40,178 nt of DNA from assembly GCA_009602725.1 (NCBI GenBank), contig WELB01000297.1, positions 69,407 to 109,584 on the forward strand, in the 5' to 3' direction. Shown here piece after piece: positions 24,406 to 40,178 of this stretch (position 1 is the first letter of the stretch; each line of letters opens with the position of its first letter). The notes under the pieces were generated by a model. It was not told the DNA's origin. It saw only the letters and a list, made by a program, of their open reading frames with translations, and did not search any database. This stretch comes from Spirogloea muscicola (Eukaryota; Streptophyta; Zygnematophyceae; Spirogloeales; Spirogloeaceae). The translations under genes and the position numbers were made by a program.

Positions 24406-25970
24406 GCTATTCTTCATTCATAGCTGGACTCCTGGCTCAGGAGCAGAATAAGAGATGAAGTCCGCACAGCCTGGTATACGCCATTTAAAAGGTCCAGCCA
24501 TTATTGACTGACGCTCTCTCCTTCTGCTGCAAGACTTGGCTTAAGGTAGTCTGACCTTTTAAAGGCTGACGTTGTTGCTGGTGGCCGGAGAGGATACTCT
24601 TGCTATGTGAGCATATTGATCGCAGAAAATCCTTCTTGATCACATATTGATTTCCAAAAGATGTGAAGGAGAGCACATTAGCCTCCAATTCGTTCCTGTT
24701 ATGTCCAAACGATGTAAAGACTGGCTCTATACGGCCTACAGACATTGACACTCATTCTTTGACTGCAAAACTCTCTTCTTGACTGTGTACCGCTTGTGCA
24801 TTCTTTCACATGAACATTCTCTAAATACACCACAAGTTTCTAATGTTAGCTGGATGTGCCATAGTTGATGGTCATTTTGAGCAATGTGCAAATGACCATT
24901 TTGCTACCTGTGTGATCCACAGTGGAAGATGGCGTATCTTGTGCCTGCGACTTGAAGTAGTAGAGTCCAAAGATGGCTCGAAAAATCACTTGCAAGAAAT
25001 GATTGCAGTAATTTGACTTCCTTTGCTTGTGAATGAGAGAGTCAGATGCGTTTTGAAAGCTGAGAATGCACTCATCGAAAACTGGTCTGCTGCTGTAAGG
25101 AGTGCACTGCGCTCTTAAGCAATACCGAACAGCCCATCCCTAAAGTGTAAGGAAACAGCTCTCCACCAGTAAAGCATGGCGTCCTTGGCAGCTGCCAGTC
25201 CCTTCCATGGTGAACGAGCTCTACTGGGAAAAGCACCACTTGGAGTTATGATTTAGGCTGCAAAGAAGGCTTCCACCAACCAAAAGGGTGTGCATGCAGT
25301 TCCAACTTCATTGACATGCTCCTGCAACATGAACACCAATGAAGTACTGTAAAGGATGCGCGGCTGGTGGCTGGGAGAGACCAGCCCAAAGGAATGGACA
25401 AAGTCTGAAGGAGCCGGATGGAGCAGAAAGCAAGGTACCAAGTGCTAAGACGGCAGCAAGGGGAATCTCAGTAACCTGTAGTCAGTAGATGCAAATCAGA
25501 ATAACTGTAAGCAGTTACTAACGCAGGGGTCGTTGCAAGAGGTCCAAATGCTGGAGACAGTCTGCGGATGATTGCACGGACGTCTTTATACTTTCATGCT
25601 CTACATTCTCCTTAGCTACCTTACTACGCAATGATACAAGCACCCAGACGAGATGTAATGTGCAAACCAAAGCCGTAGAGTATAACAAAGCTCAAACGCC
25701 TACAAATAAAGCTAAAATTTAAATATAGCTCACAGATAAGGTACAAGGTCACTGGGATATATCCATCTGCTATATAAGTTCCTCCTCATCTACTACAACG
25801 TTTTAGAGACACTCTTTTGATTAATGAAAGATTGTTTTATGACTTTGCTAAGTTTCTCTAGAAGCTGGTGCTTTCAGATATGGCACAGCCTCTTCATACA
25901 ATATGTCCATCACTGTGCTTAAGTATTCGCTTGCAATTTCCATGGAGGACACAAATCATGACTGTGTGCC
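24406..25970. other. Intergenic spacer between convergent genes
   Basis: This stretch holds the 3' flank of the sacsin gene and the 3' flank of the first cysteine-rich gene, which point towards each other. I see no exon with protein similarity and no clear poly(A) signal; the chlorophyte-type TGTAA is absent just after the sacsin stop. One fragment of the repeats described further right occurs at 25381-25411 (ACCAGCCCAAAGGAATGGAC). A reading frame at 24485-24751 on the - strand lacks any support. Confidence 0.6.
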
Positions 25971-27374
25971 CTAGGGCTTAGGACAAATAGTGCCTTTGTA
26001 ACAAATGTTGCCCTGTGACTCGACGCAACAAATCTGCATCAACCGAACACTACACAATAGGATCAGTGCCCTGGCTGCATAGTTATTAATGATCAGCCGC
26101 CTCTGAAAGTGTATCAAGATGAATCAAACGTCATTGACCCCATCAGCCAGGTTCATGCAGCCTGCCATCTCCATATTCTGTTGTACTCGAGTTGAGTACT
26201 GGCTTAAGTACAAACAGCAGGAGTATGTGAGGGTGATCAGAGAGTGGCTGACTGTAGAGTGGCACAGACGAATTACCGTGCCAAGGGGGCAGCAGGTGGC
26301 TTGATAGCGGCCACACGTGTCTGGGGTACAGCACACACGTTGGACGGGAACGCAAGTATGGCTGGTTGGGCAGCACGCTTGGCCAACTGGACAGAGAATT
26401 GGTGGGCCACTCGGCAGCGGACACACGCGGCACTTGTCGACGCAATTGCCCTGACAAGGAGGAAGGTAACCAAGCACACAATCAGTTATCATTGGCGTTG
26501 GGGATGATCACTCGCCTTTCTATCTGAAGGGCACATTGGATATAGGAATGTGCATCCCAGCAGATAGACAGCCAGTGAAGGCTAAGCAGGTCACCTCGTA
26601 GCAAGCTTGAGTGGATGGGCAGCACCCACAGGTCATATTGGTACGGAGGCACTGCTCATGGACGCACAGCACAAATCAGAGGCTGCCTGACGCACATTGC
26701 TACTTTGCACGCTGAACACGCCAATGTAAGTCTATCTGAAGCATCAATTAGGCCTTGAAAGGGCCCTGATGGCGTGGTGCTCCGAAGCCCACATGGTGGT
26801 CCTCAAATTTCAGGCTCCTTAGGAACAAAGCCAGAGTCCACCAAATGGTGGTCTCTGAGGCCTCTGGAAATACAAAAGAGGCCAGATTTGCAGCCCTGCT
26901 TCTGCCAGAATGCCACTTCTGCAATTGCTGGAGTCTTATAGAGAGGCGAAATGCAGGAGATGTCATTGAGCCTCATTGATTTCGTCAATGCTTGCAGGCA
27001 GAGTACAGCACACGTACCCATGCACATGTATCGGTGCAGATGGGGGGGCATGACTGCGCCTCCACATGCATTGCAGCCACTGCATTGAACAGCAAAGGAG
27101 TCAGTACCACCCTCGTACAAGAATTGCTGGCACCGAGAGTGAGGACAGGGCCAAGCACGCCGAGCATAAGCCTGCAGGAGGCGAAATGCTGCACGGAACT
27201 GCTGTCAGAAGGGAGAGGAGGCGCGCAGTGCGCATGAAATGTAAGGGTGGCCAACTCAAGCCAATACATTGTTCAGAGGCGGAGGCAGTCAGACAGCAAG
27301 TGGGGCAAAGAGCGGTGCCCACCTGCGAGCAGCGCGACGAGGAGGCCGGCGGCGGCGGCAGCCTTGAGGGCCAT
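25971..27374 (-). CDS. Small secreted protein with 24 cysteines, copy A, five exons
   Basis: Read 5' to 3' on the - strand, the exons are 27374-27323, 27079-27018, 26651-26595, 26450-26277 and 26033-25971, giving about 135 residues. Exon 1 starts MALKAAAAAGLLVALLA and exon 2 continues VAAMHVEAQSCPPICTD, so a signal peptide of about 25 residues is cut near HVEA|QS. Exon 3 reads CLRTNMTCGCCPSTQACYE. Exon 4 has CVDKCRVCPLPSGPPILCPV, GQACCPTSHTCVPVQRVCC and DTCGRYQATCCPLGT. Exon 5 reads ICCVESQGNICYKG and ends ICPKP-stop. All introns are GT-AG; phases are 1, 0, 0, 0. Exon 3 could start three bases earlier (26654). The mature part has 24 Cys in about 110 residues, probably 12 disulfides. Its paralogue copy B has the same structure, which validates the model. 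The family is unknown to me; the CCPxxxxC spacing only loosely resembles granulin. It is transcribed towards the sacsin gene. Confidence 0.85.
27206..27290 (-). mobile_element. Tail fragment of the LTRGY repeat family inside intron 1 of the cysteine-rich gene A
   Basis: On the - strand the segment reads CTGAACAATGTATTGGCTTG, then GTTGGCCACC, then TTTCATGCGCACTGCGCGCC and a pyrimidine tail. The same order occurs after the stop codons of the copies at 30284-30501 and 34215-34645. It is therefore the 3' end of the same element, inserted in an intron of a host gene without disturbing its exons. Confidence 0.6.
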
Positions 27375-27461
27375 GGCGGCGGGAGGTGGGGAAGTGGCGA
27401 GCTTGAGGAAGAGAGGAGCGCAGATGTGGAGTGCTGGAGCTCAACTTGGGGGCCGAGGCTC

Positions 27462-27645: not shown

Positions 27646-27870
27646 GAGGGGGACATGGGCCGGAGGGGGAAGCGCACAGGACGAAGGAGTGGGGAGGAGG
27701 AAGCAGGAAGAAGCAGCTCTGCCAAAGGCGGTGAGGGCTGTGAAAGAAGAAAGTGCTCGCCCATTGAGAATAGGGGCTGAAACAACCAGCCCGAAAAAGA
27801 ATGAACAGAGTACGAGAAGGGGGCCAGGGGAAGCGCTAAGTAACAGAAACAAAGCTGCTACGAGACACTC
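27646..27870 (+). repeat. Dispersed repeat block, copy 1 (GCTCGCCCATTGAG...CCAGCCC...GAAT)
   Basis: The part 27746-27835 (AGTGCTCGCCCATTGAGAAT, AACCAGCCCGAAAAAGAATG, GTACGAGAAGGGGGCCAGGG, GAAGCGCTAAG) is nearly identical to 29207-29302. The words GGGCGAGC and GGGCTGGC in inverted order recur throughout 27.6-39.2 kb. No coding capacity is evident. A G-rich part upstream (GACATGGGCCGGAGGGGGAA) recurs near 38609. Confidence 0.65.
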
Positions 27871-28283
27871 AGTAACCCTGCTAAGCAGCCGCAGATCAGA
27901 GTGTGAAAGGCCAGCCCACAAAAGAAAGGGAATCTGCTGTCCAAGATTCATTCAGCGCTTTTCGGCCCCTTCGAACCCTGTCAATTGTTGTCGGGCTGAT
28001 ATTTCCACAGTCCTCGTCCCCTTGGGAGAGCCACTTTCGTTCCCAAGATGAAGGCGATGGCTGTGAGAACAAGCAGCTCTGTGAAAGAGAAGCAGAAAGT
28101 GCGGCTACTAAATAGAGGTTATTCTGTCATTGTCCTACATAATCCTTGCTTAGAAGAAGTAAGCTCATCAGCTAGGGGGCGAGGGCTGTGAAAGAAGAAG
28201 TGGCACTCCAAATGGGGGCAAGGGCTGTGAAATCCAGCCCGAAAAGAATTGACAAATGGGCCATAGTAGGCTTAGCAGCTACG
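27871..28283. repeat. Fragments of dispersed repeats, no gene
   Basis: Short matches to the same repeat words occur: AGGCCAGCCCACAAAAGAAA near 27908, GGGCTGTGAAAGAAGAAG near 28183 and ATCCAGCCCGAAAAGAATTG near 28232. Nothing else can be named. Confidence 0.5.
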
Positions 28284-28675
28284 AAGAAAATGCGTGTATA
28301 TTAAGAGATGGGGAGGCCATGTGTGGCCAAGTACAAAGGCAAGCACATTGGACAAATGTACGTCACCTGCTGCTAAGCTGACCCGCTCAGTAACCACGAG
28401 TCAGCACATAGAGGTCGCTAGCTGACGCTCGAATACCGGACGGCAATTGACTAGCTCTTGTGCCAGCAGCTAAGGCTCGACCAGCTTTCTGATTTTTCTT
28501 CTTTTTTCTGATGCAGAGCATACGCCTGAGCTCGTTGCAGACAGGTTGACACTCGACGTCGCAGAAATGACAGATAGGCTGCCGGCATACCCATCTGGGC
28601 TGGGAGCATATCCTCGCGTCGTGCATATCCCAGACTCGCTATGTTCTCGAGTAGGGTATGGCAGCGAGGACCCAC
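28284..28675 (-). pseudogene. LTRGY repeat-borne coding sequence, copy A, with frameshift
   Basis: On the - strand the copy reads LGYARREDMLPAQMGMPAAY, LSFLRRRVSTCLQRAQAYAL, then, after a frameshift in an A-rich stretch near 28490-28510, KAGRALAAGTRASQ and ASASDLYVLTRGY-stop (stop at 28387). The region after the stop (TGAGCGGGTCAGC...ATGTGCTTGCC...TACTTGGCCA) is shared with copies at 30705-31061, 38679-39039 and 39640-39790. The protein family is unknown. The copy is disabled by the frameshift, but its codons differ from copy B mostly at silent positions. Confidence 0.65.
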
Positions 28676-29010
28676 GAAGGGGCCTGAAGAAGCTATGTCA
28701 GGGCGGGGGGAGGCTTGCCCCCATTGGGAGTGCCGCTTCTTCTGGGCTGGCCACACATCAGCCATCACTCTCCACTGGAAAAGCGCGGCCGAATTGACTG
28801 GAAGGGCTGTGAAAGCCAGCCCAAAAAGAATTGACAAGGGTTCGGAGGGGCCGACAAACGTTTAGCAGGTACAGAGGGGCCTGAAGGTGTCATGTTAGCA
28901 CAGGGGGAGGATGGATCACTCAGTAGTTACGAAGCGTCTTTCTCTTCCTCATTCACAGTCGCCCGCGAAGTTCAGCAGCCGCTTTCCCTGCTGCTCCTCT
29001 CAGCCATTGC

Positions 29011-29044
29011 GTTACGTAGGAAAAGCTTTTCCTTCCTATGTAAC
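29011..29044. repeat. Interrupted palindrome (foldback)
   Basis: GTTACGTAGG and CCTATGTAAC pair around a central AAAAGCTTTTCCTT that contains its own palindrome GGAAAAGCTTTTCC. It may be the tip of a small inverted-repeat element. Confidence 0.55.
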
Positions 29045-29048
29045 CTAC

Positions 29049-29125
29049 GGTCCTGCCCGAATGTCGGGCTTGAGAATTCTCAGGCCGCATCTTCTAGATG
29101 CCGCGGCGGCGCCCGCCCCACGAGA
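29049..29125 (+). repeat. Dispersed repeat, partner of 39358-39430
   Basis: GTCCTGCCCGAATGTCGGGC, TTGAGAATTCTC and GCATCTTCTAGATGCCGCGG recur in order at 39359-39425 (GTCCTGCCCTAGATGTCGGG, CTTGAGATACC, GCATCTTCTAGATGCCCGGG). Both contain the small palindrome GCATCTTCTAGATGC. Confidence 0.65.
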
Positions 29126-29203
29126 AGTGGCTTGGGAGGAAGCGGAAGATGACAACACAGGCCGAGGGGGGAGTGAGGGAGAGGGTCTGCCCCCCTCTGA
29201 GTG

Positions 29204-29305
29204 GAAGAAAGAGCTCGCCCATTGAGGATAGGGGCTGGAACAGCCAGCCCAAAAAAGAATGGACAAGTACGAGAAGGGAGCCAGGGGAAGCGCTAAGGAA
29301 AACAA
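29204..29305 (+). repeat. Dispersed repeat block, copy 2
   Basis: Nearly identical to 27743-27838: AGAGCTCGCCCATTGAGGAT, CAGCCAGCCCAAAAAAGAAT, GTACGAGAAGGGAGCCAGGG, GAAGCGCTAAG. Same orientation. Confidence 0.7.
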
Positions 29306-29720
29306 GCACAAGTGGAGGGGGGCAGATGCCTGGGGCTGGCCCACCATACGGTCGGCACGGAGTGGGCCCGCAGGCGGTGTGCCTCGTCAGCACCCTGAGA
29401 GGCACGTCCTGGAGCGGCGCCTGACTGTTTACGCGGGTAAGTAAAGCTGGCTAAGAAAGGGAGTCGGCTGACGAAAAGTGATGTCCATCATTATAGTCAA
29501 ACAGACATGTGGGCCAAGCATTCAGAGGCTACAAAAACACCTGAGACACATGTCGCCCATACCAATGCTGGAGAGTGAAACAACCCCTCAACACTTATGC
29601 TGAGTACACTAAACACACCAAGAAAAGCTGCATACCCAATGGTATACGGTTTTTGTACACAGAAGAGAGAAAGATCTTTATGGGAAGTCCTTGGTCTACT
29701 GCATGGACTGTAGTGTAGTT
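29306..29720. other. Stretch without recognisable gene
   Basis: I see no repeat partner and no protein similarity here. A - strand frame (29497-29958) contains hydrophobic residues but runs through repeat sequence, has no homologue that I recognise and is not called. Confidence 0.4.
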
Positions 29721-29739
29721 CTTTTTCGGCACCTCTTTC

Positions 29740-29820
29740 TTTGGCTTGGGATATTGTCCATTCTTTTTGGGCTGGCTTTGCCAGCCACTCTTCTCTATGG
29801 GCGAGCACTTCTCTATTGGC
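29740..29820 (-). repeat. Dispersed GGGCTGGC/GGGCGAGC repeat arm
   Basis: ATTGTCCATTCTTTTTGGGC, TGGCTTTGCCAGCC and CTCTATGGGCGAGCACTTCT match the left arm of the foldback at 31345-31505 and, reversed, the blocks at 27746 and 29207. Confidence 0.65.
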
Positions 29821-30214
29821 CGTAATCAGCACACAGACGAAAATAGTCCAAATAATGAATTTTCTCAGAACAGGGAGGCACCTGACGCGGCTGCGCCACC
29901 GTGGCGAGCCGACAAGCCGCCGGTCTATCTGGGGGTCCGGTTGGGCCCGCCCACTCACTGTTGTAGGCCCATTGAGGGCAGGCGCTGGCCGCCCACGACC
30001 TCCTCAGAGATGCTACATTCAGCATCTTCCTGAAGGCGGGGGCGTGCTGGCGGCAGATCCCAATCCGACGGCCTCCATGCAAGGCCGAGCTGGGTGGCCA
30101 TCAAGCCTGCCGGCGAGCCCCGCATCATCACTGATGTGGTCATCATGGACGCTGTCTACTTGTAGAAGATCGGCGCTTTCCGGCTCCTCCGGACCTTGTT
30201 TATTCCATTTCTCC

Positions 30215-30600
30215 ATCTCTTGCCATCTCCCTGTAGCGTTCCTTGCTTCTGACTCGTGGTTACTGAGCGGGTCAGCTTAGGAGAGAGAGAGAGAGAAGGC
30301 GCGCGGGGCGCATGAATTGAAAGGGAGGCCAATTCAAGCCAATACATTGTTCAGGCAGAGTCGAGTGCAGACTAAACAATGCTACATAATACGGAGACCT
30401 AATCTAAGGTACCTAAGATGACATTAGTACCCACGGGTGAGCACAAACAAATCTGACAAGCTAACTTGGGGAGCTGGAGCGCCGCCACGAAAGCCGGAGG
30501 CCTTAGGAGCAGGTGATATACATCTGTCAATGTGCTTGCCTTGAACTTGGCCACTCAGGCCCTCCATTACGTTATACGTATCCAATTTCCTTGGTCTTTG
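30215..30600 (+). pseudogene. LTRGY repeat copy split by a nested insertion
   Basis: The left part ends LLLTRGY-stop followed by GAGCGGGTCAGCTTAG; the right part resumes at 30502 with CTTAGGAGCAGGTGATATAC and ATGTGCTTGCC...ACTTGGCCACTCAGGCCCTC. Copy A has the two halves joined (GGGTCAGCTTAGCAGCAGGT). The interrupting 218 bases are annotated separately. Upstream of the LTRGY end the peptide is badly decayed. Confidence 0.6.
30284..30501 (-). mobile_element. 5'-truncated LTRGY element with 8-bp target duplication and (CT)n-type tail
   Basis: The insert is bordered by CTTAGGAG on both sides (30276-30283 and 30502-30509). Read on the - strand it starts inside the coding part (APAPQVSLSDLFVLTRGY-stop), continues through about 120 bases of 3' region with CCTGAACAATGTATTGGCTT, and ends GCGCGCCTTCTCTCTCTCTC. 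Truncation at the 5' side, a simple-repeat 3' tail and a target duplication are typical of non-LTR retrotransposition. The exact right border within the GA run is uncertain. Confidence 0.65.
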
Positions 30601-30704
30601 CCGTGAACTTGCGGGCGGGCCGCGCCTCTTACTGCTGCTTCCGACAGGGCGACGCTTTTCCGCTTCTGGGCTGGCTGTGCTAGCCCCTCATCTCTCAGGA
30701 AGAA

Positions 30705-31061
30705 AATTTCGTGTATTTGAAACAAACATAGGCCAATGGCCAAGTACAAAGGCAAGCAAGCACATCTAAATATCTACATAACCTACAGCAGGTTGACCCG
30801 CTCAAAATCCACGGGTCAAAACATAAAGGTCGCTAACCGATGCATGAATACTAGATGTCAGGTACGAAGCCCTTCTGTCACCAATTAGAGCTCGCCCAGC
30901 TTTCTTATGCAAGGCATTAGCCTGAGCTCGCTGCAAACAGGCCGAAACTCGACGTCGCAAGAACGACAAATATGCAGCTGGCAAGCCCATTTCAGCCGAA
31001 ACACATCTGCACGTCGTGTGTAGCCTCTCAGGGCGCGCCATTCTTTTTTTTTAATGGGCGA
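30705..31061 (-). pseudogene. LTRGY repeat-borne coding sequence, copy B
   Basis: On the - strand this copy reads MGLPAAYLSFLRRRVSACLQ, RAQANALHKKAGRALIGDRR and HASVSDLYVLTRGF-stop (stop at 30802) without interruption for about 60 residues. Upstream, GYTRRADVFR matches copy A after a one-base shift, so the copy is not intact. The 3' region TGAGCGG-like word, ATGTGCTTGC and TACTTGGCCA matches copies A, F and G (here the stop is TGA directly followed by GCGGGTC). Confidence 0.65.
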
Positions 31062-31084
31062 GCACTTTCTTCTTTGTCCTTCCG

Positions 31085-31274
31085 CCCTCTACTTATTCTG
31101 AGTCAGGCCCAGGTCTTTCGCATGCGCTTGGCGGTATCGTTCCAGCGATCCCTTGCCCACGCTGTCCACACGCGCGCAGGACGCGCTCTGGCCGCGGCCT
31201 CCGGGTCTCGGCGGAGTGCCTCCTTCCCTGCCTCGAGCTACTCGGACCTGATGTTGCTCACTCGCGGGTACTGA
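31085..31274 (+). pseudogene. LTRGY repeat-borne coding sequence, copy C
   Basis: Reads QVFRMRLAVSFQRSLAHAVH, TRAGRALAAASGSRRSASFP and ASSYSDLMLLTRGY-stop (stop ends 31274). A possible acceptor TTCTGAGTCAG precedes it, so it could be a terminal exon. Upstream sequence is repeat DNA with a T run. Between this copy and copy D I count about 27 silent and 6 replacement codon differences over 48 codons. Confidence 0.6.
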
Positions 31275-31344
31275 GCTTCCCTAGTATGTTGTCGTGATTG
31301 GTAGAGTAGAGGAGTCCTTCCTCGGCTTCTCATTCTTCGGCTTT

Positions 31345-31505
31345 TGGACATTGTCCATTCTTTTTGGGCTGGCTTTGCCAGCCCCTCTTTCTCTATGGGC
31401 GAGCCTTCTTCTGAAGAAAGTGCTCGCCCATAGAAAAGAAAGAAGGCTCGCCCATAGAAAAGAGGGGCTGGCAGAAGCCAGCCAAAAACGAATGGACAAA
31501 AACCA
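31345..31505. mobile_element. Foldback element with about 66-bp arms
   Basis: The left arm TTGTCCATTCTTTTTGGGCT...GGCTTTGCCAGCCCCTCTTT...ATGGGCGAGCCTTCTT (31345-31410) pairs with 31439-31505 (AAGAAGGCTCGCCCATAG...GAGGGGCTGGCAGAAGCCAG...GAATGGACAA). A third partial arm, AAGTGCTCGCCCATAGAAAA, sits in the loop. The right part extends to 31535 as an inverted copy of 31895-32000. It has no coding capacity; single arms are scattered through the window. Confidence 0.75.
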
Positions 31506-31639
31506 AAGAGCCACAACAGGTGCCGAAAAGAAGGGAAACACACAGCTAGGGTCTGATTCGCACTTGCTGACTAGAGATTGTTCAGCGTTCGTCCAAATAA
31601 AGTAACTTAGAGTAGTTCTGTGTTTTGGCGCCTTCCGGG

Positions 31640-31845
31640 GGGGCTGCCCGGCTTCAACGCGGCCGGCTCCCTGGCCCAGGTATTCCGGATGCGGCTCTCC
31701 GTGTCCCTCCAACGCTCCCTCGCCCATGCCGTCCACTCGCGTGCCGGCCGCGCTATCGCGGCTGCTTCTGGGTCGCGCCTGTATGCATCTTTTCCAGCTT
31801 CGAGCTACTCTGACCTGATTTGCTCACGCGCGGGTATTGAGCTTC
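31640..31845 (+). pseudogene. LTRGY repeat-borne coding sequence, copy D, with end frameshift
   Basis: Reads GLPGFNAAGSLAQVFRMRLS, VSLQRSLAHAVHSRAGRAIA and ASFPASSYSDL, then loses one base relative to copy C (GATTTGCTC instead of GATGTTGCTC), so the LTRGY end is out of frame. The 3' flank TGAGCTTCC is shared with copy C. Confidence 0.6.
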
Positions 31846-31894
31846 CTGTGGTCTCGTCGTGTCTAATTGTCTAGGATGCCTAGCTGTGAATATC

Positions 31895-32005
31895 TCTTCT
31901 TTTCGGCACCTGTTGGGGCTCTTTGGAATTTGTCCATTCTTTTCGGGCTGGCTTCTGCCAGCCCCTTTTTTCTGTGGGCGAGCACATTCTTCCGGCCCTT
32001 TCAGA
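31895..32005 (+). repeat. Dispersed foldback arm, inverted partner of 31414-31535
   Basis: CTTTTCGGCACCTGTTGGGG, TTTGTCCATTCTTTTCGGGC, TGGCTTCTGCCAGCCCC and GTGGGCGAGCACATTCTTC repeat, in reverse complement, the right part of the foldback element. Confidence 0.65.
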
Positions 32006-32059
32006 TGCTTCGAGCATTTTCTTTCTTTATTAATTCCTCTGAGCTGGCCTCTTACGAAT

Positions 32060-32182
32060 GAAACAACTCTTCCAATGCAAGGCAATGGCTATGCAAGGCA
32101 ATGACTGTAAGTTGCCAGCCCTTGGCAACTTACAGCCAAAGGAAGGTGCACACAGCCGTTGCCTTACATTAAGAGCTGTTTC
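32060..32182. mobile_element. Foldback MITE-like element with nested perfect hairpin
   Basis: Outer arms GAAACAACTCTTCCAATGCA...GGCAATGGCT (32060-32090) and AGCCGTTGCCTTACATTAAG...CTGTTTC (32154-32182) pair imperfectly. Inside, CTGTAAGTTGCCA and TGGCAACTTACAG (32105-32117, 32123-32135) pair perfectly over a GCCCT loop. The arm sequence recurs singly near 32226, 32353-32382 and 33130-33160. Confidence 0.65.
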
Positions 32183-32440
32183 TTCTTTGAAATGTCCTCA
32201 CGCAGCCATCGCCTGACGCTGGACAGAGCTGTTTCTTTCTTTTGGCCGCTGGCCTCTCACAGCCATCGCCCCCTGGAGAGTGTTCCCCTGGAGAGTGTTT
32301 TCTGCGCCTTCCGGTCCTATCAGCCCGTGTTCATTTCTTTTGGGCAGACCTCTCACAGCCGTTGCCTTACATTGAAACAGCTGCTTCTGTCTTTTATCTC
32401 GACGAGCTTCTTCCGACAAGTCCAATCCACGCAGCTGTGA
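32183..32440 (+). repeat. Repeated arms of the GCCTTAC...GAAACAGCTG family
   Basis: CTCACAGCCATCGCC, CTCTCACAGCCGTTGCCTTA and CATTGAAACAGCTGCTTCTG recur with the word TTCTTTTGGGC. A short tandem CCCTGGAGAGTGTT is duplicated at 32270-32299. No gene is seen. Confidence 0.5.
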
Positions 32441-33657
<1,217 letters not shown>

Positions 33658-33799
33658 CTTCTCTCTAAGAGCGACCCTTATCCAATAGTTCCTTCGAGCT
33701 GCATTGCCTTCTTTGAGACCATTTAGCGTCCATTCGTAAGAGTCACGGAGAGTAGTTCCGTGTCTTTGCAATTTCTAGCCCTTCCGGACCTTGTTCATT

Positions 33800-33975
33800 T
33801 CTTTTGGGCTGGCCCATCATAGTCACCGCCTTATCTGAGAGCTATTTTTCTGTTTGCGCGCATGCGCATATTGGTAGTCAAGCTCTTTCAGAGTAAGGCA
33901 ATGGCTGTGAGAGGTGAGCCCAAAAGATAGAGTGTAAGGCATGGCTGTGAGAGGCCAGCCCAAGAGGAGAGGATT
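33800..33975. mobile_element. Foldback MITE-like element plus an extra arm
   Basis: TCTTTTGGGCTGGCCCATCA...CACCGCCTTATCTGAGAGCT (33800-33842) pairs with AGCTCTTTCAGAGTAAGGCA...GTGAGCCCAAAAGA (33881-33927). The loop holds GCGCGCATGCGCAT. A second right arm follows directly (GTGTAAGGCATGGCTGTGAG, 33932-33951), so arms can occur in tandem. Confidence 0.65.
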
Positions 33976-34214
33976 TCTTGCGAAGGGCGACTACTGTGAA
34001 TAGCCAGCCCGTAAGGGAGAAGCGCAAAAAGCTCGAAAGCCCAAAAGGAAAGACACGCATGCCGTAATTGTACCACTATTTTGAGTGCCAGACTTGCGTG
34101 TTAACGCTTTCAATCAGGCTGTGTGACGTAGACGTCACTCACTGTAGGCCCTAATCATCTCGTGGCAGTGACCGTAGAGAATGTGCGAGCTTCCAAGCAG
34201 AGCAAGTGCTGCGT

Positions 34215-34645
34215 CGAAGAGGTGCATGTGTCGCGCAGTAGCAAAGCTGGCCTTGGCCGCTCCGGCGGCGGGCCTGCTGGCATGCTCGCCAGCGTAGGGC
34301 CTGTCGGGGCAGCCGCGGCCGTGCTCGCGCCCCCATTATTGCATATTACGGAGTGCGGCTTCGCTTAGTTTGCAGCACTCGCAAGCTCTGGCTATTCATC
34401 AGCGTTATGGGCGCGCTCTCAAGTCAGCCCACCTGCTTCCGTGGCGGCGCTCCGGCTCCCCAATGGCTTGTTGGATTTGTATGTGCTCACTCGTGGGTAC
34501 TGACGTCACACCGTTCCTTAGCCAAGTTAGCGTAGGGCTTTGTTTTATGTAGTCTTATTGCTTTGCATAGTTTCTACCTGAACAATGTCTTTTGCCTTGG
34601 ATTGGCCTCCGCTTATTTCATGCGCACCGCGCGCCTTCTCTATTT
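34215..34645 (+). pseudogene. LTRGY repeat-borne coding sequence, copy E, frameshifted, with 3' tail
   Basis: Reads LQHSQALAIHQRYGRALKSA, then after a frameshift LLDLYVLTRGY-stop (stop at 34501-34503). The 3' region includes CCTGAACAATGTCTTTTGCC, GGATTGGCCTCC and TCATGCGCACCGCGCGCCTT followed by CTCT, the same end as the insert at 30284-30501 and the intron fragment at 27206-27290. Confidence 0.6.
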
Positions 34646-36973
34646 TGACTTACATTGAGTGAGCTGTTTCGATATGAGTAAAGCCCTGGGGCACAGCCAG
34701 ACACACCCTCAGACGAGCTAGGGAATGTAGATAAGCAGACGGACGCAGCCGTTGAGGGCGCGCAACATCGACGCAGATGCAACCCTGACTAAGGGCGCGC
34801 GACGACCGAAGGCGCAACCTGGAAGTCTGGCGCGCGAATGAATAACGTTGATGGTTGAGTCTTCACAGCAATTGCCTCTTGTCGCTCTTTCCAGTGCCAG
34901 CATTGGCGCTGTCTTTTGCAACCTTTCCCGGCCGTGCCGTTCGTATGTCTGCTTGAGGAAGCGGACAAACTTTCCCTCATCGCCTCCTGGAGAAGCCTTA
35001 TCTCCAGGCATCTGTCAAGCCATCTTCCTGCGGCATTGACATTCCAATTGGAAAATGCATCATGAATCATTGGTGGATTTTGCCTTTAGATCCGCGTGTA
35101 CCAGAAACTGGTGAGGCTTGTCAAGAAAATCTAACATCCTCTGTGAACATTCTGTACAATGATGCCAACGATGCTATCAGATCCCGCATGTTGCAATAGA
35201 TGATCCACGCGTAGTCTTGTTGTCGCTCCATGGTGGTACTTCGCAATGGTCTCAAGGTGGTCAAACCAAGATGATGGCTTTCGCTTCTCACCATAAGCGC
35301 CTGGTAAGCACATACATTGTGACCGTAAAGGTACAATCTCGTCATCAATAGCTGTCATGCTGTGGAAGGGTTTCGGATGACCTCAAAATCATTGTTCACA
35401 GTGGAGGTCAACTGCATCCAACTTGACAGGCTAATGCCTATGTTTTAGCATGGCGGTCAACAAAATTGGTTGCGCGCTTGCAACCGGTTGGATTAATCAC
35501 CGGCAAGGTCCTGTTTGACGATGCTGCCAGATTCTGAGTGCATAAGGAAGTGCTCATGAGCCTTCTCAGCGATGCTCCATACGTCCTACATCGCACTGTC
35601 ACGTGTGTGGGCCGACCACGATCGTGAACTAAAGTGTGACTAGCTTAGATCAATCAACAAATTCTAAAAGTAGACAGCAACACAATACTCACATACTGAT
35701 TTCCTTGCCAAATTCCTTGTTGGAACACACTATAGAGTAACCGGCTTGCTAAACGGCTGCCAACGGCAGCAAAGACGAGTGAAGAGCCCAGCTTAGGAGG
35801 AGAAAGAGAAATTCCAGCGGTGTGCGAGGCCACCAAAGAGCCATAAAGAGCCTGATGTCTATCATCGACGCAGACGGAACGGCTCCAATCGGTCGAATGG
35901 GCTCAGCTTTCGAGGTGGATTAGGGTTTGGGTTGGAATCGGTCTAGTAATCAAATTTAGGGCTCAGCAGTGACGGTGGCGGGAGCCTATGGAGGAGGTGA
36001 GTGAGACGACCGGGGATGGCCACCTGGACAGAGCACACTTGAGTACGGCCACGTGCGCTGGCGCAGGCAGTGCCTGGCCCAGACAGCACCTAAGCTCACG
36101 TGCGGGAATGTCGAACACCTCAGCTGACTGAAGATTCTTGAAAGATGCATCACGTGACTCCCCGTGCGATTCGGCTCCGTCAGCCCGCCCCTGCTGTCGG
36201 TGGTGGGCGGTGCCGTCATCACACTCGGTTGCCGTCACCGTCAAGAGACACCTTTTCCTGCTGGCAAAGCCCCCCCATAGCCATCTCCTTCTCAGCCAGA
36301 GAGACCCTCGTCCGACAGGAAGCGAATGGCTGGGAACGGCTACTAAGGAGAAAGTGGACAAGGTTCAGAGAGGAGCCCCATTGGCGAAGCACTCAGCAGT
36401 ACAAGTGGCCACTTCTGGCTTCTCCATGTGACACTAGCATCACGAGCACTGTCGATGGTGAAACTGGCGAGCTCCACCGAGACGGACAACGGCTGTCATT
36501 GACCAGCCCAAAGGCACAGACTGTTAGTTGCCATAAGCATCTGCTTACCTGCAGATATACACGCATTGATGAAAGTGATCATTAGTCGAGCGGGATAAGA
36601 AGGGTCGATAAGCTTCTGCAAAGATTGTGCGTTCGATGGATTTATGATTGATTCTGACTTGTTGCCTTGCATCTCGCCCTTGCTCGCAATGAAGGAAGCC
36701 TCCAAGGCAGATGTCTATTAGAAGCCCAAAACTGTATGCACTCCGATATAAAGCTCCTAAACGTGGAGCCTACAAGCTCACTACACTAAGTATATCCACT
36801 CAAGGAAGTTGTCACATCCTCATGAAAGATGTATTCTTGTGTAAAAGATTAATCTACAGCTGGTAATATCAGGTACGACACAGTTTCTGTCTGCAACAGC
36901 TTCGTAATTCTGCAACTTGCGATGTGGTATGTTCCCGCGTTGCCCTCAGAGAGGACACAGACCGTGACAAGGC
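34646..36973. other. Stretch without recognisable gene
   Basis: No exon with a recognisable protein match and no RNA gene was found. Reading frames on the - strand at 34718-35011 and 35131-35358 look protein-like in composition but I cannot match them, and both are bounded by stops. ATTAGGGTTTGGGTTGG near 35920 recalls telomere words. Near 36349-36382, GTGGACAAGGTTCAGAGAGG is a fragment of the foldback family. Confidence 0.45.
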
Positions 36974-38314
36974 TTAGGGCGTAGTCGGGGGGCACACAGT
37001 GCCAGTAATGCAAGTGACACCACCAGTGGGCTTGGGGCAACAAATCTGCACCATTGCAGACATCCAACAGTAAAATCAGTGCTCACCCCTGCGTTAATGG
37101 CCACTGCCCTTCTGTCAAAGTCAATGAAGTCATTGACCAATCAATGCAATGTGATGCAACCTGCATCTTCATCATCTACCTTGGCAAAGTAAGAACAGCA
37201 GTTCGAGCGAGGTCTACCACAGAGTGGCAGAGTGCAGGATGGACGACTGGATCACCTGGCCAGCAGGGCAGCAGGTGGGGCGAAGGCGGCCACACGAGTC
37301 CTTAGTGCAGCACACACGTTGGCCGGCGACACAAGTGTGCGAGGTCGGACAGCACGCAGCCCCCACAGGACAGAGTATCGGTGGGCCAGCCAGCTGTGGG
37401 CACACTCGGCACTCATTGACGCACTTGCCCTGACACGGGGCAACATGTGAGCAGACTTGCAGTCAGCATGTGTCAGCATCTTCAGGATCAAGATTGACTG
37501 CTCGCCTTCTGATGTGCAGTTGCGCTAGATGCACTTCGCAATGAAGGAGAAGTGGAACGACATGGAGAGAAGGCTGAAGAGGTTACCTGGAAGCAATCTT
37601 CATTAGAAGGGCAGCACCCGCAAGTGTTATTGGTACGGAGGCACTGCTCATGGCATAAGAGTGCACGCATCAAGGACTGCTCTTCAGAACATATTGCTTC
37701 GCATGCTAAGCAAACCTACGTGAATCTGATGGAAGCATCAGCAAAGCCACAACAGCCCTGAGGGCTCTGAGGGCCAATGGTGGCCATGAAGGCCTAGGGT
37801 CTTCAGGGACATAGCCAGGGGTCGAGGACACAGAGACTTCTTAGACTACTGACATTACCACAAGGCCACAAGTGAGTCTGTGCTTCTGCTCGGGTGCATT
37901 TTCCTAGAGTCTCTCGGAAAAGCGACAGTTAGGTGGCCTGAGTAAGACGTGCAGGTGAGGCTGTCAATGCTTGACAGGCATAGGATGTCGTACACACCCA
38001 CTGACATGAATCGGTGCAGATGGGGGGACAAGCCTGTGCCTCCACGTGCACTGCAGCTACTGCATCAGAAGAGCGCCAAGGTCAATTACACCCTCGTACA
38101 GAAAATTATCCGTGGTGTTGCAGAAAGTCAGGATGGGGGACGCAAAAGGCGCGCAGCCTTGCAAGGAACTTGCGTGCATTGAAGGAATGACGCAGGTCGC
38201 GAGTTGGTGCAGGGGTCCGGCATCAAAGGCAGAGACACACGGGCAGAGCGGGCACGGCCCACCTGCGAGCAGCGTGACGAGGAGAACGGCGGCGGCGGCG
38301 GCCTTGAGCGCCAT
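36974..38314 (-). CDS. Small secreted protein with 24 cysteines, copy B, five exons
   Basis: Read 5' to 3' on the - strand, the exons are 38314-38263, 38059-37998, 37643-37587, 37429-37256 and 37045-36974, giving about 138 residues. Exon 1 starts MALKAAAAAVLLVTLLA and exon 2 continues VAAVHVEAQACPPICTD: a signal peptide with probable cleavage near HVEA|QA. Exon 3 reads CLRTNNTCGCCPSNEDCFQ. Exon 4 has CVNECRVCPQLAGPPILCPV, GAACCPTSHTCVAGQRVCC and DSCGRLRPTCCPAGQ. Exon 5 reads ICCPKPTGGVTCITGTVCPP and ends TTP-stop. Exons 1-4 have the same lengths as in copy A (52, 62, 57 and 174 bases), phases are the same, and all 24 cysteines align. In exon 4 about 42 of 58 residues are identical. The protein is probably exported and disulfide-rich; a wall, matrix or defence role is possible but unproven. 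Confidence 0.87.
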
Positions 38315-38396
38315 GGCGGCGGTGGCGGGAGAGGAGGTGGGCTTGGAGGAGGGCTGGAGACAGGAAGATTGCGGCTTCTGATATCAAAAGAGCGGC

Positions 38397-38402
38397 TTTA
38401 TA
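38397..38402 (-). promoter_or_regulatory. TATA box of cysteine-rich gene B
   Basis: TATAAA on the - strand, in the context GGCTTATAAAGCCGC, lies 83 bases upstream of the ATG. Transcription would start about 50 bases before the ATG if normal spacing applies. Confidence 0.5.
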
Positions 38403-38459
38403 AGCCAGGGAGGTGCGTACAGCGGTTGTTCATTAAACAACTCAGGACGGAGAACGGGC

Positions 38460-38640
38460 AGGCCCCTTGGTACACTCCTTTGGGCTGGCGCCTCTTCTCA
38501 GCCAGTGCCTTGATTTTGAAAGAGATTTATCTTCTTTCTTCCTTGGTTAGCTTCTTGAGCTGACCCGAGGGAGGCGGGAGGAGGGGGGGTGTCTCCCGGG
38601 GGAGGGAAGACATGGGCCGGGGGGCGAAGCGCGGCTGGAG
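38460..38640 (+). repeat. Repeat fragments upstream of gene B
   Basis: TTTGGGCTGGCGCCTCTTCT, CAGCCAGTGCCTTGATTTTG and AAAGAG are an arm of the foldback family. GACATGGGCCGGGGGGCGAA matches the block near 27649. Confidence 0.5.
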
Positions 38641-38678
38641 GGGGGGAAGCAGCGCCGCGGAGGAGCTCCTTCCTCCTA

Positions 38679-39039
38679 GGTCCTCGTTTCCACGCCCTCG
38701 AGAAATATTCCAATCTAGGCTATGCACGACCCGCAGGTGTGCCTCCCACCGGGACGGGCTTGCCAGCTGCGCATTCGTCGTCTTGCGCCGTCGTCTGTCA
38801 GCCTGTTTGCAGCTTGCATGCTCTGCCGGAGAGCTGGGCGAGCTCTAGTTGGTGGCAGAAGGCCTTTAGAATTTACCATCCGGTGTTGAGGCATTAATGA
38901 GCGTTCTCTAAAGTGCTGACCCGTGGATCGTTAAGCTGGTCAACTTGCAGTGAATAATGTCTGTCATCAGATGTGCTTGCCGTTGTACTTGACCACTTTG
39001 GCATTCCATTACTTTACTACACGCAAGTTTCCTTGCGGC
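38679..39039 (+). pseudogene. LTRGY repeat-borne coding sequence, copy F, frameshifted
   Basis: Reads GPRFHALEKYSNLGYARPAG and TGLPAAH, shifts to VVLRRRLSACLQLACSA, then to RAGRALVGGRR, and near its end VLTRGS (38914-38932). The 3' region TCATCAGATGTGCTTGCCGT, TGTACTTGACCACTTTGG and CATTCCATTAC is shared with copies A, B and G. Several frameshifts disable it. Confidence 0.6.
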
Positions 39040-39089
39040 TGCAGCGCTCCCGACAAATCAAACCGCAAATGTCAAATGTACATTTTGTG

Positions 39090-39640
39090 GCCCCCTAGAA
39101 AGTGCTCGCCCATAGAGAAGAGGGGCTGGCACCTGCCTCACCGCCCCACCGCGCACGTCTTCAGAAGCGGGCCTTCCTTGAGACGGAGGCCCTCCTGTCC
39201 AACTCTTGCCCATCCCTGCCGGCTCCGTCGGCAACATGGTCGCAGCCCTGTTCAGTCCATTGTTTAATCAATGGGCGAGCCCATTGAATGAACTCTCATG
39301 CAGCCCCTCGCGTTGCCTGCAGCTTGCTTTGCTTCTCTTGGAGCCAACATCACGTGCCGGTCCTGCCCTAGATGTCGGGCTTGAGATACCGTCGGCAGCA
39401 TCTTCTAGATGCCCGGGCGGCGCGCCACGCGTGGATCTGGTGGGGGGAAGCGCGCTAGCAAACGTGGCAGGACGATGGAGGTAACAAGGTGAGGGGGGCC
39501 TTCGAAGGCAACGGCAATCACCGGCTAGCCTGGAAGGGGGCAGTTTACGGAATTGCGGCTGCTGATATTACGGCCTTACCATTCACGGTCTCATTTAACC
39601 AGCGGTGGCTGTGAGAAGCGCATTCCTAATTGTTGATGTC
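39090..39640. repeat. Mixed repeat fragments, no gene
   Basis: AAAGTGCTCGCCCATAGAGA and AGAGGGGCTGGC (39100-39130) are one arm of the foldback at 31345-31505. The part 39358-39430 is the partner of 29049-29125. AACCAGCGGTGGCTGTGAGA near 39598 recalls the other foldback family. Confidence 0.55.
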
Positions 39641-39790
39641 CTAATAGTGGCCAAGTACAACGGCAAGCACATCTGATGACGTACACTACCCACTGCATTT
39701 TGACCCGCTCAGTGACCACGGTTCAACACAACAGTCGCTAACCGATGCTTGGATACCAGATAACCGGGAAGGGGGGGATGGCGGGCCCCA
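39640..39790 (-). pseudogene. LTRGY repeat, copy G, decayed 3' end
   Basis: On the - strand LSGIQASVSD continues, after a frameshift, into a degenerate version of the LTRGY end (GTTGAACCGTGGTCACTGAG). The 3' region GCGGGTCAAAATGC, GTACGTCATCAGATGTGCTT and GTACTTGGCCA matches copies A, B and F. Confidence 0.55.
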
Positions 39791-39984
39791 CCGGAAGGGC
39801 GGCGGCCGCCAGTGGGCGGTAGGCCACGTCGGCACCCACCGCACGAGGGCCCCCTGCCAGCCTGGCGGGGCCGACCAGCAGCCGGGTTGTGCGGGCGCCG
39901 CCCGGGCCACTTCCACGCCCGGGCTCCTCGGTCACTCCCGGTCTGCCTGCGTCTAACGGGTGTCTATCTCTCTCTCTCCTCTCT

Positions 39985-40178
39985 CAAGCTGACCAGCGGC
40001 GCCGGGAGCAGGGTGCTGCCCTTCCCGGTGGCTCGGTGCCTTTGGGTCTGGTGTCCTGCTACCGTATGCGACTGTCTATGTCCCTGCAGCGCTCCCAAGC
40101 GCTTGCTTTGCACCGCCGCGCTGGTCGCGCCCTTGCAGCAGCCTCTGGCTTGCGCAGCGGGGTTGCTCTTCCTCCCCT
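39985..40178 (+). CDS. LTRGY-family coding sequence, copy H, cut by the right edge
   Basis: After a CT-rich tract and a possible acceptor (CTCTCTCAAG|CTGACC) one frame reads QGAALPGGSVPLGLVSCYRM, RLSMSLQRSQALALHRRAGR and ALAAASGLRSGVALPP without a stop to the window end. It is homologous to copies C and D with mainly silent codon differences. It could be a terminal exon of an intact gene or element continuing to the right, or another fragment. Confidence 0.4.

Follow-up and report, generated by a model that had tools for sequence, protein, structure and literature searches.

Which protein lies behind a short coding sequence that recurs at ten places, on both strands, in a 40,178-nucleotide stretch of DNA from the streptophyte alga Spirogloea muscicola (contig WELB01000297.1, positions 69,407 to 109,584; hereafter the window)? 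A preliminary description of this DNA had noted the copies and their shared peptide, knew no family with this signature, and considered either the C-terminus of a transposon protein or a fast-expanding host gene family. We found that the recurring peptide represents the final ~60 residues of the sole open reading frame (ORF) of a non-long terminal repeat (non-LTR) retrotransposon, or long interspersed nuclear element (LINE). With a probability of about 0.93, the ten copies are 5'-truncated insertions of an autonomous non-LTR retrotransposon that encodes a restriction-like endonuclease (RLE) and is represented by several related families.

The genome searched was the 153-Mb assembly. With one window copy as DNA query, 40 places scored at 91-100% identity, the query itself among them, and the frame was seen to continue upstream in the longer genome copies. 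At six of nine loci chosen for long frames, a single open frame of 1,386 to 1,433 codons includes a reverse transcriptase (RT); the frames at the remaining three (L047-L049) are broken by N, and their apparent length is due to these N runs. The type A ORF (L043) is 1,358 residues long, counted from a shared methionine, and contains a proline-rich N-terminus, two C2HC fingers, the RT, a third, CCHC-like finger and a tail. All four long family ORFs (A, B, C, and E) begin with one or more N-terminal fingers, continue with the RT and a C-terminal finger, and then show the RLE motifs, all within one ORF. RVT_1 (Pfam) matches the type A ORF over its cut-off (E 2.3e-13) and is detected in all five family representatives (A, L043; B, L061; C, L062; D, L064; E, L063). 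The (F/Y)ADD box of the RT is present in the frames as TYADD, SFADD or SYADD. After the RLE follows a conserved tail, L(T/S)RG(Y/F)-stop, which reads LLTRGY in intact copies and SDLYVLTRG(Y/F)-stop in type F. The suggestion of a transposon C-terminus is thus borne out, since the frame extends upstream into an RT-bearing ORF of ~1,400 codons, and the family is no longer unrecognised, as this ORF carries both an RT and RLE-LINE motifs.

The RT is followed by a CECG...H...C finger, by an H that is invariant, by D-X14-D, and by KX2KY. Residues D769, D784, K814, and Y818 (A1 numbering) do not vary in any of the five families compared, at 52-80% identity to A. The last motif is KEKKY in A and KELKY in B and E, and KX2KY is also present in D; KX2HY takes its place in C (KERHY) and F (KMQHY). 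In PMC5678591, RLE LINEs are described by the order finger, RT, CCHC, and RLE plus a KX2KY motif, with a CCHC spacing of CX2-3CX7-8HX4C and a conserved W in GXW. The CCHC-like finger of our element stands at the expected place, and its spacing is a variant.

A search of PDB with a five-family profile ranked three R2 entries at the top (E 3.9e-8, 5.2e-8, and 1.8e-7), followed by an RNA-directed DNA polymerase (E 0.23) and LINE-1 (E 0.42). R2 ranks first by its RT, and few LINE clades have solved structures. R2 surfaced only with this profile; phmmer with the full ORF against PDB gave one chance match (E 4.7). Pfam returned a single sub-threshold match on three C-terminal pieces, and the NCBIfam group II intron RT model matched the RT region at E 0.02, far below its cut-off. 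In six full-length type A copies the 5' end is unlike the 3' end, judged by eye only and with no LTR search. A scan of viral contigs for relatives gave 63 pattern matches, none of which was confirmed. Another RT of the same genome, around an RVT_1 match at L019, has YLDDILIF and is presumably of the LTR type, not part of this LINE.

Like members of the R2 clade, the element has one ORF that carries N-terminal finger(s), an RT, a CCHC-like finger and an RLE with KX2KY, and it shows 5' truncation and TPRT-like insertion (TPRT, target-primed reverse transcription); R2 provides the nearest PDB sequences by RT. Unlike R2, it is dispersed in varied flanks and was not seen tied to 28S ribosomal DNA; no Rfam match, rRNA included, was found within the window. 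Its finger spacing also differs, and it has its own conserved tail after the RLE. Within the Utopia/NeSL/HERO group, compared here by description from PMC4640811, Utopia matches in layout (between one and three fingers at the N-terminus, the RT in the middle, a C-terminal finger plus RLE), and HERO is alike in having many non-specific members. In contrast to this group, no link to a U2 small nuclear RNA gene was seen for our element, no genome-wide search for one having been made. RLE-LINEs are mostly described as target-specific in PMC4640811; the literature drawn on also includes PMC5348765. Our open-access literature search found no paper containing all the terms that would link RLE LINEs with green algae or with Chlamydomonas, which does not exclude that such papers exist. 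The RLE-LINE families are new, but the kind of element is known. Zepp-type L1 elements of Chlorella and Coccomyxa form nested LINE clusters in green algae and are of the endonuclease/exonuclease/phosphatase (APE) L1 type; the nested clusters are alike, whereas the present element has RLE motifs where Zepp has APE. Naming an abundant, apparently unknown protein signature as an RLE-LINE tail keeps it from being annotated as a family of host genes. Since several related families are dispersed and include near-identical long copies, they offer material for studying RLE-LINE life without a strict site.

Six related families (A-F) were met, and the window holds 5'-truncated copies or stubs of the 3' untranslated region (UTR) resembling each of them, as follows.

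25364..25506, minus strand: type E 3' end stub, 77%, E 2.9e-25 with L063
27219..27275, minus strand: type C 3'-UTR stub, 86.2%
27745..27901, minus strand: young type B 3'-UTR stub, 98.7% over 157 bp, in GGGCTGG sequence, direct repeat TTCACA
28323..28675, minus strand: decayed type F copy, ...SDLYVLTRGY-stop and 3' UTR, with a frame slip
29204..29308, minus strand: type B 3'-UTR stub, 89.6%
29709..29812, plus strand: type D 3'-UTR stub, 91.4%
29949..30156, plus strand: degraded CCHC/RLE-region fragment with stops and a frame slip; two pieces in tblastn, E 8e-8 to 2e-4 with five families
30215..30600, plus strand: older type F copy interrupted by a type C copy, with LTRGY-stop at 30249-30266 and the 3' UTR resuming past 30509
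30276..30283, no strand: target-site duplication CTTAGGAG, left copy
30290..30502, minus strand: 5'-truncated type C copy, ending SLSDLFVLTRGY-stop and 3' UTR, 91.6% to L062
30502..30509, no strand: target-site duplication CTTAGGAG, right copy
30705..30990, minus strand: type F copy, ...SDLYVLTRGF-stop and 3' UTR, tblastn E 6.5e-9
31101..31412, plus strand: young 5'-truncated type A copy, last 57 residues to ...MLLTRGY-stop (31101-31274) and 3' UTR with terminal hairpin; 98% protein identity to an intact genome copy over 31101-31271(+) (tblastn E 2.5e-26), and 99.3% identity to intact L043 over 306 bp (31107-31412)
31440..31508, minus strand: type A 3'-UTR stub, 88.6%
31635..31992, plus strand: 5'-truncated copy related to types A and D, one-base frame slip near the stop, and 3' UTR; 82% protein identity over 31635-31835(+) (tblastn E 2.5e-26), blastn extending to 31983-31992; 39 other scored genome places at 91-96% identity
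32480..32806, plus strand: degraded C-terminal copy with in-frame stops, tblastn E 3.9e-15 with L063
34339..34641, plus strand: older type C copy, ORF end and 3' UTR, 76.8%, E 2.7e-57
38717..39035, plus strand: decayed type F copy, 70% to 30732-31026, E 1.2e-26; 38960-39035 matches 30523-30593
39646..39761, minus strand: type F 3' end stub, 75.8% to 30737-30856, E 2.5e-16
39976..40178, plus strand: C-terminal piece, closest to type C (61% to L062 by tblastn, E 1e-15), cut by the window end with an N run just beyond

All ten copies of the preliminary description are homologous to one element clade by protein or DNA match. The copies at 31085-31274(+) and 31640-31845(+) are type A or its kin, those at 30284-30501(-) and 34215-34645(+) are type C, and that at 39985-40178(+) is nearest type C. 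Type F comprises 28284-28675(-), 30705-31061(-), 38679-39039(+), and 39640-39790(-), plus 30215-30600(+); the first four match each other at E 1.2e-26 to 1.2e-7 in a DNA self-comparison of the window, in which 30215-30600(+) is also related. Contrary to the preliminary description, the peptide core is not kept in every copy: 30215-30600(+) outside its insert, 38679-39039(+), and 39640-39790(-) were recognised by DNA, and these three gave no tblastn match at E 0.01 or better save a C-terminal-like piece at 30588-30662 (E 0.001). The preliminary description had missed the degraded copy at 32480-32806(+), the endonuclease fragment at 29949-30156(+), and 3'-UTR stubs, among them 27745-27901(-), 29204-29308(-), 29709-29812(+), and 31440-31508(-).

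Selection on the protein before the copies decayed, as proposed earlier, agrees with our measurements. The ratio of replacement to silent substitution rates (dN/dS) is 0.18-0.27 in all ten pairs of the five family representatives over ~920 codons. For the copies near 31.1 and 31.7 kb, where 27 silent and 6 replacement differences in 48 codons had been counted by eye, the silent count stands and we measured 27 and 8 in 49 codons (the final two fall where the second copy slips by one base). The resulting dN of 0.119 and dS of 1.74 give a dN/dS of ~0.07, likewise well below 1; this value is rough, as the piece is short and its dS close to saturation. It was the source elements that were under selection, and this accounts for the silent bias among dead copies.

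The mode of insertion can be read from 30215-30600(+) and 30284-30501(-), which overlap because a type C element inserted into a type F copy. The type C copy 30290-30502(-) sits inside the older one, an exact 8-bp duplication (CTTAGGAG) flanks it, and the flanks, when rejoined, align to the uninterrupted type F copy 28284-28480(-). Such a nested insertion with an 8-bp duplication is the pattern left by TPRT of LINEs; we infer that this protein carried it out. Copies have family-specific 3' ends in common, and their 5' ends vary. Junctions were collected from matches of at least 80% identity reaching a family's 3' end in ~3.2-kb loci and the window, identical junctions being counted once, which gave 84 distinct complete events. 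Direct repeats of at least 6 bp occur at 8/84 junction pairs vs 136/5,000 mismatched flank pairs. Sixty of the events lie outside loci fetched for length and have a median of 84 bp, with 45 not exceeding 120 bp and a single one of at least 1 kb. The ORF protein would bind its own RNA at the 3' end, target DNA would be nicked by the RLE, and the 3' end freed by the nick would prime reverse transcription; synthesis would mostly halt early and leave short 3' stubs, while the fingers and tail may contact RNA or target DNA. In the 5' flank of L043, a duplication-like AATTCAA is separated from the element's 5' end by ~35 bases, and by eye this piece resembles the antisense 3' UTR of another copy, as if by template jump.

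The element is probably present in thousands of copies, mostly short and broken. A protein search with a 174-residue C-terminus gave 20,150 first-look candidates (150 scored, the weakest at E 2.7e-81), and one with 62 residues of the type F copy 30705-30990(-) gave 10,757 (150 scored). The RT (278 residues) gave 1,591 first-look candidates, of which 139 were scored; eight of these are 100% identical over the whole query, 18 places of equal score lie at 73% and have frames open over 1,142-1,403 codons, and others lie near 82%, 76%, and 60%. Near-identical full-length copies exist in the genome, and the element has apparently been active recently. Queries of families A-F cover 2,586 of the 40,176 readable window bases (6.4%), ~390 of them being the type F query pieces themselves. 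Coverage outside the window is 997/28,094 readable bases (3.5%) in nine 5-kb stretches at round-number positions, a sample too small for a genome-wide figure. An identical LINE C-terminus was met at three places, on contigs C27, C94, and C95 (L006, L007, L021-L023); C94 and C95 share ~2 kb at 99.9%, which marks them as a recently duplicated region and not as independent insertions.

Several points weigh against the identification as an RLE-LINE. The putative RLE is assigned from motifs and not from fold, the R2 matches in PDB span the RT part only, and outside the RT, Pfam and NCBIfam gave sub-threshold matches only. The finger spacing is CX1CX12HX3C (CX1CX11HX3C in F) instead of CX2-3CX7-8HX4C, and the conserved W sits in GX2W, not GXW. 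The type D representative lacks the N-terminus in the copy examined, and type F is known only as C-terminal parts of at most 373 codons, with finger and RLE. The first-look counts refer to unscored candidates from queries of different length, and the ~3.2-kb loci and the 80% identity floor set limits to the copy lengths. Direct repeats of at least 5 bp were found at only 13/84 junction pairs (control 348/5,000).

The 3' UTR is short with a fixed, family-specific end, which in A, B, and D carries a GGGCTGG...CCAGCCC hairpin and a ATGGGCGAGC box; the end of type C differs from these, and by eye so does that of type F. The GGGCTGG/CCAGCCC stem is kept in most of 121 A/B/D-like 3' ends (91 distinct), its eight pairs forming in 70, 89, 88, 88, 89, 87, 78, and 45 of the 91 distinct copies. 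Covariation lends the hairpin no real support among these copies because the stem changes are almost all one-sided.

That the RLE-LINE inserts preferentially into its own clade's 3' ends (hairpin and box) is unproven, and we hold it to be improbable. It is suggested by single insertions that hit another copy in its hairpin or box (L025, L069, L006, L031, and window 27745-27901), by GGCTGG or CCAGCC within 20 bp at 14/84 junctions vs 1,593/20,000 control positions (8.0%), and by the presence of either hexamer near four of the 13 junctions having direct repeats. The loci were picked for holding such 3' ends, however, and a stricter paired-flank test gave 5/87 vs 115/3,000 (3.8%), where the 87 events include L062, L063, and L064, masters cut at arbitrary points and without real junctions, which the set of 84 excludes. 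Moreover, among copies with a length of 60 bp or more and an identity of 90% or more, the hexamer is near only 3/28, and the junctions have no clean consensus beyond pyrimidine richness. Somewhat more doubtful still is a wider scenario, in which an RLE-LINE radiation with an altered CCHC finger would home to the 3' hairpin of its own clade, build nested clusters and thereby spare genes.

The short median length of 84 bp could also suggest short interspersed nuclear element (SINE)-like, non-autonomous elements with a borrowed LINE 3' end instead of truncated LINEs. This is quite unlikely, as the 5' ends differ per copy, the 24-base left flanks share no common head by eye, and the window has no tRNA or Rfam match. 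We give slightly less credit to an element of the Dualen/RandI type, an RLE-bearing LINE group in PMC4640811, with both APE and RLE and the former missed: RLE motifs and an RT in a single ORF are shared, yet the type A ORF of 1,358 residues has no Pfam match to an APE domain with an E-value of 1 or below and instead begins with the proline-rich N-terminus and its two C2HC fingers. A host gene family under purifying selection, spread by DNA duplication and then decayed, would fit the low dN/dS between copies and is the least credible account, since 5' truncation is varied, 3' ends are fixed, copies are nested in one another, intact copies bear an RT, and a target-site duplication and direct repeats flank some of them.

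Besides the RLE-LINE copies, the window contains a (TC)n array of ~113 units (33440-33666) that adjoins the LINE cluster, and a TTTAGGG-like array was seen. Two diverged gene copies, 26238-27409(-) and 37218-38350(-), are 66% identical over ~900 bp. Their product has a signal-peptide-like start (MALKAAAAA...LLAGG) and a cysteine-rich stretch (ACCPTSHTCV...RVCC), which we take to be granulin-like.

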